64,000 nucleotides of DNA from the NCBI RefSeq assembly GCF_019977395.1, contig NZ_AP024660.1, positions 744,001-808,000 on the forward strand, written 5' to 3'. The DNA comes from Arthrobacter sp. NicSoilC5. GTDB taxonomy: Bacteria > Actinomycetota > Actinomycetes > Actinomycetales > Micrococcaceae. Positions 57,389 to 60,202 of the stretch are shown here, piece by piece. The translations under genes were made by a program, and so were the position numbers. Position 1 is the first letter of the stretch, and the number at the start of each line of letters is the position of its first letter. The notes beneath the pieces are model-generated. The model had not been told where the DNA came from. It saw only the letters and a program-made list of their open reading frames with translations, and searched no databases.

Positions 57389-59914
57389 CTAGGCCGGAAC
57401 GATGTTGACCAGCTTAGGCGCCCGGACGATCACCGTGCGGATGCCCCGGCCATCCATTGCGCGCTGGACGTTCTCCGACGCCAGTGCCAGTTCGCGCAGC
57501 TCGTCTTCGGAGACGTCCGGGGACACCTCCAGCCGGTCGCGGACCTTGCCCTGGACCTGGACGACGGCGGTGACCGTGTCCTGGACCAGCAGGGCGGGGT
57601 CGTGGGACGGCCAGCCGGCGTTGGCAACCGATGCAGGGTGGCCCAGCAGGTTCCACATGTCCTCGGCGGTGTACGGCGCGAACAGGCTGAGGATCACGGC
57701 AACCGCCTCCGCGGCCTCGCGGACTGCGGGATCCGCTGCGCCCGCACCGGAGTCGATCGCTTTGCGGGTGGCGTTAACCAGCTCCATGAGCTTGGCCACC
57801 ACCACGTTGAACTTGTTGGCGTCCAGGAGTTCGGCGGCATCGGCGATGGTGCGGTGCGTTACCGAACGCAGCCCGCGGTCTCCGGCGGCGGCATCCACTC
57901 CAGGTTCACTGGTGACGTCCTGTGCCAGGCGCCAGGCCCTGGCCAGGAACTTGGCGGAACCGGACGGCGACACGTCGGCCCAGTCCACGTCGTCCTCGGG
58001 CGGGGACGCGAACACCATCGTCAGGCGGACAGCGTCCACGCCGTACTTGTCCAACTGCTCGCCGAGGTCAACGCCGTTGCCCAGGGATTTGCTCATCGCC
58101 TTGCCGCCGTTGAGCACCTGGCCCTGGTTCAGCAGCGCACTGAACGGTTCGTCGGCATCGATCATGCCGAGGTCGTGGATGACCTTGGTGAAGAAGCGTG
58201 CGTACAGCAGGTGGAGGATGGCGTGCTCCACGCCGCCCACGTACTGGCCCACCGGCATCCAGTCATTGATCTTCTGCGGATCGAAGGGCCCCTCGGTGTA
58301 ATGCGGGGAGACGAAGCGCAGGAAGTACCAGGACGAGTCCACGAACGTGTCCATGGTGTCGGTGTCCCGCTTGGCGGGCCCGTGGCAGGTGGGGCATTCC
58401 ACATTGACCCAGGACTCCGCCGCAGCCAGCGGCGAGGTGCCCTTCGGTGCAAGGTCCTCACCACGGAGGTCCGCGGGCAGGGTAACGGGCAGCTGCTCAT
58501 CAGGCACGGGGACTTCACCGCAGGACGGGCAGTGGATGATGGGGATGGGGGTGCCCCAGAAGCGCTGGCGGCTCAGCAGCCAGTCGCGGAGCCGGAAGTT
58601 CACGAACTTCTCGCCGGTACCCTGCTGTTCCAGCATGGCAATGGCGGCAGGAATGGCCTCAGCCTTGGGCAGGCCGTCCAGCGCGCCGGAGTTGATCAGG
58701 GTGCCCTCGCCCGCTGTCGCGGTGCCGGAGACGGCCGGGTCTTCTTCGCCGGTGTCCAGGACAGCGCGGACCGGCAGGTCGAAGGTCTTGGCGAAGTCGA
58801 GGTCGCGCTGGTCGTGGGCCGGGACGGCCATGATGGCGCCCGTACCGTAGTCCGCCAGGACGTAGTCGGCGGCCCACACGGGCAGCTTCTCCCCGTTCAG
58901 CGGGTTGATGGCGTAGCGGCCGGTGAAGACGCCGGTCTTCTCGCGTTCCGTCGACTGGCGTTCGATTTCCGAGAGTGCCTTGACCCGTTCACGGTATTCG
59001 TCCAGGGCCGCGGCGTGTTCGTCCGTGACAAGTTCGACGGCGAGCGGCGCGTCCGCAGCGACCACGAAGAACGTTGCCCCGTACAGGGTGTCCGGGCGGG
59101 TGGTGAAGACCGTGACGTCCTTGGCGGGCCTGCCGCCATCGGCCTCGATCACGAAGTTCACGTGCGCACCCTCGGAGCGGCCGATCCAGTTCTTCTGCAT
59201 GGCCAGGACGCGTTCGGGCCAATGGCCGCGGAGCTCGTCCATGTCATCCAGCAGGCGGTCCGCGTAGTCGGTGATCTTGAAGTACCACTGGTTCAGGGAC
59301 TTCTTGGTGACGGTGGTGCCGCAGCGCTCGCAGGCGCCGTTGACAACCTGCTCGTTGGCCAGGACGGTCTGGTCCTTGGGGCACCAGTTGACCGGGGAGT
59401 TCTTCCGGTATGCCAGGCCACGCTCGTAGAAGCGCTTGAACAGCCACTGCGTCCAGCGGTAGTACCCGGGATCGGAAGTGTGCAGGCGGCGCGACCAGTC
59501 GGCGGAGATGGCGTACCGCTTGAAGGAGGCTGCCTGGGTGTCGATGTTGGCGTACGTCCACTCGCTGGGGTGGGCGTTGCGCTTGATGGCAGCGTTCTCC
59601 GCAGGCAGGCCAAAGGAGTCCCAGCCGATGGGATGCAGGACGTCGTAGCCCTTCTGACGCAGGTAGCGGGCCACCACGTCGCCCATGGCGAACGCCTCGG
59701 CGTGGCCCATGTGCAGATCGCCCGACGGGTACGGGAACATGTCAAGCACGTAGCGGCGCTCCCGCGACCCGTCGTCCACCGGGGTGAAGACCTTGAGGTC
59801 GTCCCACACCTGGGGCCATTTGGCCTCCATGGCGGCGAAACTGTAGGTGCCCTCTTCAGGCTCCGCCGATACTGTTGTTGCTGTTCCGGTCTCTGTCTCC
59901 GGCTGAACGCCCAC
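57389..59914 (-). CDS. leuS: Leucyl-tRNA synthetase
   Basis: This class I synthetase of about 841 residues charges tRNA-Leu. The HIGH-type motif is in [14 protein letters not shown], the large editing domain (CP1) follows, and the signature lysine loop reads AMSKSLGNG instead of the textbook KMSKS. Zinc ligands are in CERCGTT and CPSCGEVP. I chose the GTG at [11 protein letters not shown], with AGAGGG 5 bases upstream; a longer frame to 60004 is possible but runs through a terminator hairpin. The upstream leader carries a leucine-rich peptide and a terminator, so expression is probably attenuated. Confidence 0.95.
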
Positions 59915-59999
59915 TGCTGCCCTCTTCTGTTCTGTTACGGCATCTGTGCTGCCATAACGGCCTGATCCTCCTGCTGCCGGCCCGGCGCCATGCCCCGGA

Positions 60000-60029
60000 C
60001 ACACAAAAGCCCCTCTCCATGGAGGGGCT
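60000..60029 (-). terminator. Terminator of the leuS attenuator
   Basis: On the minus strand AGCCCCTC pairs with GAGGGGCT around a 6-base loop, followed by TTTTGTGTGT. It lies between the leuS leader peptide and the leuS coding region, so it acts as a conditional stop rather than an end-of-gene terminator. Confidence 0.75.
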
Positions 60030-60063
60030 GCCGCTCAGCTGTCCGATAATCGGAGCCGGCGGC
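60030..60063 (-). promoter_or_regulatory. Upstream hairpin of the leuS attenuator
   Basis: Between the leader-peptide stop and the terminator, the minus strand can fold as GCCGC...GCGGC enclosing TCCGATTATCGGA. It may pause polymerase or compete with the terminator, as in classic attenuators. The pairing was worked out by eye only. Confidence 0.4.
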
Positions 60064-60089
60064 TAACTAAGCAGAAGGATCGCACGCAT
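60063..60089 (-). CDS. leuS leader peptide (MRAILLLS)
   Basis: This eight-residue frame ATG-TAG contains three consecutive leucine codons (CTT CTG CTT) plus an isoleucine codon. It precedes a hairpin and an intrinsic terminator, which in turn precede leuS. When charged tRNA-Leu is scarce, ribosomes would stall here and change the folding of the leader. The peptide resembles the leuA leader in this window. A TAAAGT element ends 6 bases before the ATG, so the leader is probably translated from a leaderless 5' end. Confidence 0.65.
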   Translation of the reverse strand: MRAILLLS

Positions 60090-60095
60090 GGATCT

Positions 60096-60101
60096 ACTTT
60101 A
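60096..60101 (-). promoter_or_regulatory. -10 element of the leuS transcript
   Basis: TAAAGT on the minus strand, 4 of 6 matches to TATAAT, ends 6 bases before the leader-peptide ATG. No clear -35 is present. Confidence 0.4.
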
Positions 60102-60202
60102 GCGCACCGGCACGTCCCCCGCCTCAGCCAGGCCGAACGGCCCTTTGCATTGGCCGGGGCAAGTGCGCATGATCGTCCCACAACGTTGGGAGGCGGCACA
60201 CC

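Follow-up and report, generated by a model that had tools for sequence, protein, structure and literature searches.

The leuS locus and its upstream leader

The window, meaning the whole 64,000-nucleotide stretch of Arthrobacter sp. NicSoilC5 DNA that was analysed, carries on its minus strand the leucyl-tRNA synthetase gene leuS, identified by TIGR00396 with 967.9 bits against a cut-off of 548.4. Its upstream neighbours are a plus-strand ORF, with partial FAD oxidoreductase and Rieske matches that are all below cut-off among the matches listed, and glpK on the minus strand. A compact leader precedes leuS, with the following features.

57389..59914, minus strand: leuS, leucine--tRNA ligase, with 59914 as a putative GTG start of our own choosing
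60096..60101, minus strand: -10 hexamer TAAAGT, read from the sequence and kept as TAnnnT in relatives
60063..60089, minus strand: leader ORF MRAILLLS*, 27 bases and 8 codons, probably leaderless, from sequence and comparison
60069..60071, minus strand: last Leu codon of the leader, CTT, the presumed sensor codon, from codon counts in distinct leaders
60030..60063, minus strand: hairpin I, from folding and covariation, with GCCGC (60063-60059) pairing with GCGGC (60034-60030) at its base
60005..60029, minus strand: intrinsic terminator, with the stem AGCCCCTC/GAGGGGCT at 60029-60008 and the T tract at 60008-60005
60070..60081, minus strand: 5' strand of the long-range stem P0, GATCCTTCTGCT, within the leader ORF, from single-helix scoring and folding
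59964..59975, minus strand: 3' strand of P0, AGCAGGAGGATC, beyond the terminator, from single-helix scoring and folding

The pieces described in an earlier sequence-only reading of this region, namely a TAAAGT hexamer, an MRAILLLS frame with a run of Leu codons, a foldable spacer and a stem followed by T's, are all present on the minus strand. The leader ORF reads ATG CGT GCG ATC CTT CTG CTT AGT TAG (60089-60063) and begins six bases after TAAAGT; a single base separates hairpin I from the terminator stem, and approximately 90 bases lie between the T tract and leuS. The terminator reads AGCCCCTC-CATGGA-GAGGGGCT followed by TTT, with the final T of the stem completing TTTT. Its stem has the eight pairs that had been described, although the term "GC stem" needs correcting, as six of the eight are G-C.

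Conservation across Actinobacteria

Taken as a single sequence, the window leader makes a modest case: its fold has a z score of -1.65 with 12 of 200 shuffles folding equally well, one terminator-like site was seen where 0.4 were expected, and a single-sequence scan found no consensus -35/-10 pair in it. It is the comparison with other genomes that settles that the element is more than chance. Among 80 leuS loci taken from named genomes, some of which carry very little upstream sequence, a motif scan detected this arrangement in 29. Positives include Arthrobacter, Pseudarthrobacter, Paenarthrobacter, Nocardioides, Nonomuraea, Actinomadura, Microlunatus and Thermoactinospora loci; none was found in the Leifsonia, Agromyces, Herbiconiux, Curtobacterium, Kocuria, Yaniella, Nocardiopsis and Thermobifida loci scanned.

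At E<=1e-3, and under stricter filters that lose some weak matches, a covariance model (R1) built from the window and 28 of the motif-scan loci detects the element in 157 of 295 family genomes, representing 18 of 32 genera, and in 195 of 394 class genomes, representing 82 of 137 genera. The matches that were fetched form a subset, the best-scoring plus 100 hand-picked from the family and class lists, and leuS lies downstream on the same strand in 154 of 156 of them. L136 and L158 are one place fetched twice. Two R1 matches with no leuS found downstream in the stretch available, L138 and L247, were dropped before the counts on 184 rows; these 184 leader rows with leuS comprise 176 distinct sequences.

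Among 100 members, 98.6% of pair cells hold standard pairs and 11 of 14 pairs vary on both sides, a result equalled by none of 500 shuffles, in an alignment that was fitted to R1 and leans towards the model; sliding it by 1-3 columns cuts standard pairs to 44-55%. Hairpin I and the terminator stem thus both covary in the aligned sequences. The comparison across genomes that had been proposed as a check on the leader accordingly came out in its favour, with conserved Leu codons, leaderless spacing, two covarying stems and leuS downstream, all far above chance. None of the 4227 covariance models of Rfam matches the window leader at E<=1, and there was likewise no Rfam match over the leaders of L210, L046, L016, L163 and L212.

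Approximately 130 nt upstream of leuS in L013 (Glutamicibacter), an apparently degenerate version of the element can be seen by eye, with TAGAAT, an ATG and a short ORF in which CTA is the one Leu-type codon, and with CCCCC/GGGGG forming the terminator. R1 also has a second match in the genome of the window, at G000:C1:1235426-1235531, approximately 0.43 Mb away (29.5 bits, E 1e-4). This second leader is that of acetolactate synthase.

L144 1440-1680, minus strand: acetolactate synthase leader, an R1 match, the gene being identified by TIGR00118 over its cut-off

It consists of an ORF, MTFVTAGTVVVVLTKRVAH*, followed by a AAACCCCTC/GAGGGGTTT terminator with a T tract, and also contains CTT ACC.

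Sequences flanking the element

Several further sequences recur around the element. Directly upstream of the -10 hexamer, TGCGC (62 rows) or TGCGG (25 rows) abuts it in 87 of the 184 rows, lying at 60102-60106 on the minus strand in the window, and is perhaps an extended -10 element. On the 3' side of the T tract a TGTCCGG stretch is conserved throughout the class (59993-60004, minus strand, in the window); among loci without the TTTTGTGTG tail, CCGG occurs at +5 to +20 in 38 of 86 versus 5 of 86 at +40 to +55. A further hairpin, GTTATGGCA/TGCCGTAAC, lies ahead of leuS at 59934-59958 on the minus strand; it reads GTTGTGGCA/TGCCACAAC in L006, a paired change, and is by eye absent from L007 and L008.

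The TGTCCGG stretch was rejected as the leuS start by testing its reading frame relative to leuS. The same test rejected a leuS start directly past the T tract with GAGGGG as its Shine-Dalgarno sequence: ATG or GTG lies 7 nt past GAGGGG in 133 of 156 loci, but the frame of these starts relative to leuS is random (33, 40 and 37 dereplicated loci at the three possible offsets); 28 of the 184 rows have no GAGGGG-like arm.

Leader ORF and its leucine codons

The start codon, ATG in 149 and GTG in 27 of the 176 distinct leaders, lies 6 or 7 nt past TAnnnT in every one, in a search that permitted 4-9 nt. In Streptomyces lividans the distance from the -10 element to the transcription start averages 6.3 nt, according to the accessible part of PMC8079986. 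The TAnnnT-to-start spacing therefore suggests the geometry of a leaderless ORF. The peptides range from 6 to 18 residues, and 104 of the 176 have eight.

The last codon of the Leu run is nearly fixed, with CTT in 166, CTA in 6, CTC in 4 and CTG in none of the 176 distinct leaders; the penultimate codon is mainly CTC (80), CTG (66) or CTT (25) over the 184 rows. All 28 source loci of R1 have CTT and were found partly with a motif demanding CT[TC], so the model may under-collect other codons; a separate scan demanding just at least two consecutive Leu codons gave the same codon pattern. CTT is a minor codon in the window (10%), not a very rare one, accounting for 149 of 1459 Leu codons versus 850 for CTG in a crude set of 38 window ORFs, and occurs 0-2 times per leuS gene in nine relatives checked. 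Of 50 tRNA matches, nine long tRNA genes were checked, and these included four tRNA-Leu genes (CAA, CAG, TAG and GAG), each in a single copy. By wobble, tRNA-Leu GAG reads both CUU and CUC.

Hairpin I and the position of the ribosome

The last Leu codon lies 4-5 nt from hairpin I in 119 of 130 loci, L129 included, and in 121 of 131 loci hairpin I ends 0-2 nt ahead of the terminator stem. The stall modelling assumed that a ribosome covers 15 bases beyond the first base of its P site; the mean fraction of hairpin I arm pairs left is then 0.96, 0.57 and 0.00 when the A site holds the first, the second or the last codon of a three-Leu run, respectively. A ribosome on the last Leu codon would thus just cover the 5' arm of hairpin I, which means that the position where slow decoding is needed for hairpin I to be lost is the one where the minor codon is fixed. 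In our view this is the best clue to the mechanism. A ribosome at the stop codon of LLLS* likewise covers the arm in the model, and hence the duration of its stay must make the difference.

These regularities also bear on the idea that leucine plays no part, and that leuS is simply kept at one unchanging level by a fixed terminator accompanied by a small leaderless ORF. The mild single-sequence statistics fit such an arrangement, as do the many actinobacterial leuS genes that appeared without the element in the motif scan, where 29 of 80 loci, some with little upstream sequence, were positive. However, a fixed terminator needs neither codon identity nor start spacing nor hairpin distance, all three of which are held class-wide, and this explanation is highly improbable.

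Search for an antiterminator

The defining piece of a classical attenuator is an antiterminator that excludes the terminator. The leader had been described as the full layout of ribosome-mediated attenuation; this is not borne out by folding and swap tests, which found no conserved antiterminator. In equilibrium folding with the ribosome placed on any of five codons the mean predicted probability of the terminator stays at 0.93-0.96. Consequently, an effect of hairpin I on termination draws no thermodynamic support from the models run.

A four-region attenuator of the classical type, in which release of the hairpin I 3' strand lets it pair with the 5' arm or the loop of the terminator through lineage-specific sequences, would be in keeping with predictions for the nascent RNA. 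Before the 3' arm of the terminator is made, its 5' arm is caught by upstream sequence with a probability of 0.23 when hairpin I is masked versus 0.05 when it is free, and the window reaches 0.39 with hairpin I masked. However, over 130 loci (L129 included) shuffling the hairpin interior raises this capture to 0.37-0.40, above the 0.21 of the real sequences. Swapping partners between 130 loci, again with L129, did not reveal cognate pairing either: hairpin I pairs with its own terminator 5' arm no better than chance (z -1.5) and with its own terminator loop more weakly than with swapped ones (z +3.2), whereas the two strands of hairpin I, used as a positive control, give z -21. The leader and the 3' arm of the terminator are complementary (mean helix -11.3 kcal/mol), but both are nearly invariant, so that swapping makes little difference (z -0.8). 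Since weak candidates are present in L210 and in the window, and an antiterminator was stated for Streptomyces leuS leaders in the accessible text of PMC1262725 (2005), a lineage-specific antiterminator is possible; as the explanation of this leader, four-region attenuation is nevertheless unlikely.

Probable pairing of the leader ORF beyond the terminator

In the window, P0 comprises 12 base pairs, one of them G-U, and occurs in the predicted fold of the readthrough RNA. Over 131 dereplicated loci the helices formed by leaders with their own downstream sequence average -14.5 kcal/mol, versus -12.8 (sd 0.22) for permuted partners, and none of 5000 permutations was as good. Two control windows of 60 bases, one ahead of the promoter (434 of 5000) and one farther downstream (389 of 5000), lean slightly the same way without being significant. 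For the whole leader the excess is confined to +4 to +56 past the terminator and absent from windows beyond; one sub-window, pairing the last Leu codon with +52 to +72, gave 5 of 1500 taken alone. The pairing is therefore likely, as judged by this permutation test.

The dereplicated set omits the window itself, which L091 and others represent, as well as loci with fewer than 60 nt downstream; six of its anchors were refixed by rule and that of L184 by hand. L129 was counted among the 131 despite N bases downstream, and was left out of the sub-window test (129 loci) and the readthrough-fold test (130 loci, with the window added). An early single-helix test gave a combined p of 1.5e-11 that treats close relatives as independent, so that the 131-locus permutation test is the better one; in that early test no P0 beyond chance was found in loci including L003, L009, L010, L022, L039, L047, L049, L063 and L069. 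A comparison by RNAduplex allowed large internal loops, did not separate own from swapped partners, and was replaced by the single-helix score. In the case of the window, 9 of 29 swapped leaders give pairing as good as the native one, since relatives share the leader.

Such pairing raises the possibility that control is exerted on the readthrough RNA, with P0 hiding or destabilising the leuS ribosome site or protecting the 5' end, a Leu-stalled ribosome breaking P0, and the terminator being secondary. The same idea was put forward for the leuA LEU element, according to the accessible text of PMC1262725. The permutation result, the location of the excess directly past the terminator and the predicted fold of the window readthrough RNA all agree with it. 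On the other hand, swapped leaders pair downstream nearly as often as native ones (109-115 versus 117 of 130 folded readthrough RNAs), P0 is kept in 88.3% of cells within genus and barely covaries there, and the terminator and its T tract are strongly conserved. Of the 51 loci that combine a strong P0 helix with a called start, just 2 show an overlap of at least 3 nt with the called Shine-Dalgarno sequence; many automatic calls there are unreliable owing to the GAGGGG artefact described above. Control through P0 is thus a rather improbable account of the leader, somewhat more so than a four-region attenuator.

Proposed mechanism and its significance

With a probability of about 0.6, the leader attenuates transcription of leuS in response to leucine and is of the Streptomyces kind, with hairpin I being disabled by a ribosome stalled at CUU. 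This attenuator reading rests on class-wide conservation, covariation, the presence of leuS downstream, leaderless spacing, the fixed CTT, the geometry of hairpin I and the Streptomyces precedents. Because the last base of TAAAGT lies six bases ahead of ATG, transcription is expected to begin at or next to the leader ATG; in S. lividans alone has the start been mapped, by others. With such a start, translation of the 8 codons would begin at the extreme 5' end of the transcript. Under a good supply of charged tRNA-Leu, the ribosome would complete the ORF and dissociate, hairpin I would form beside the terminator and most RNA polymerases would stop. When charged tRNA-Leu is scarce, above all the CUU-reading isoacceptor, the ribosome would wait with the last CUU in its A site and its leading edge covering the 5' arm of hairpin I; the loss of hairpin I would make the terminator less effective, and leuS would be transcribed. 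In the resulting readthrough RNA the leader ORF could pair past the terminator as P0. As a guess at its role, this pairing may seal the 5' end against further translation of the leader.

The stall, the direction of the response and the weakening of a non-overlapped terminator by loss of hairpin I are all inferred. The earlier proposal that low charged tRNA-Leu would raise leuS readthrough fits these observations. We prefer, without proof, the view that hairpin I helps the terminator and that the stalled ribosome removes this help, since no conserved antiterminator was found. The more specific statement, that over much of the class this is an attenuator lacking an antiterminator, in which the CUU-stalled ribosome covers the base of a helper hairpin and deprives the terminator of its help while the readthrough RNA closes its 5' end via P0, is offered tentatively and is more doubtful than the general reading.

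Actinobacteria may commonly use this layout to set the level of leucyl-tRNA synthetase, an essential enzyme. The class-wide comparison yields one testable prediction for each part, namely the sensing codon, the position of the ribosome and the disabled hairpin. If experiment confirmed that an antiterminator is missing, an intrinsic terminator would be shown to be controllable by a ribosome without any rival structure. Moreover, the unit of approximately 100 bp could act as a compact leucine reporter in Actinobacteria.

Relation to known leader systems

The trp, leu and his attenuators of enterobacteria share with this leader its leader codons, the logic of a stalled ribosome and a terminator. 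They differ in that their antiterminator and terminator exclude each other and that their leader ORF is leadered, being translated from a ribosome site of its own; an antiterminator excluding the terminator was not found here by computation. A different comparison is offered by the mycobacterial cysteine leaderless uORFs, on which further work was reportedly done by Canestrari et al. in 2020. In the accessible part of Shell et al. 2015 (PMC4633059) these are also leaderless short ORFs, rich in the relevant codon and upstream of a related gene; however, the amino acid is another one, and the cysteine leaders are without conserved terminator hairpins according to the available text of PMC1262725.

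In the actinobacterial LEU element of leuA, as far as the accessible text of PMC1262725 describes it, a run of Leu codons likewise pairs with a downstream site, as P0 does here. Unlike P0, that pairing involves the leuA Shine-Dalgarno sequence and forms a pseudoknot, and there is no obvious terminator; in leaders of the window type the P0 site usually lies upstream of the called Shine-Dalgarno sequence, and a terminator is present.

Control of leucyl-tRNA synthetase by so short a leader had been called much less familiar, which overstates the matter, as leuS attenuators are known in Streptomyces. In the accessible parts of the two sources, they were predicted in S. avermitilis and S. coelicolor (Seliverstov et al. 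2005, PMC1262725), and the leader peptide LeuL2 of S. lividans TK24, MRAVRLLLSEPR, was placed upstream of leuS with a mapped leaderless start and a likely Rho-independent terminator (PMC8079986, 2021); no leucine-starvation test of leuS is reported in those parts. A literature search, with most subscription papers outside its scope, found no open-access paper joining leuS, a leader peptide and Arthrobacter, and no other leuS attenuator study by title; the accessible parts of PMC4633059, PMC4046766, PMC13236596 and PMC3896937 do not treat a leuS leader.

R1, built as far as known without any sequence from the genus Streptomyces, nevertheless finds L210 and L211, in both of which the MRAVRLLLSEPR peptide is recovered identically. 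This shared match and the LeuL2 peptide place the window element in the same, already known kind as the Streptomyces leuS attenuator. It adjoins leuS upstream on the same strand, and has a leader ORF with Leu codons, a terminator with a U tract and homology to the Streptomyces leaders. The gene controlled, the leaderless leader with three Leu codons, the hairpin and the U-rich terminator are alike in both, and one covariance model finds both. The window peptide is shorter, with 8 codons and its stop right at the base of hairpin I, and no conserved antiterminator was found, in contrast to the one reported for Streptomyces in the accessible text of PMC1262725. To this known kind the present comparison adds new details: the uniform start spacing of 6-7 nt, the fixed last CTT, the predicted stall position covering the hairpin arm and the likely P0 pairing.
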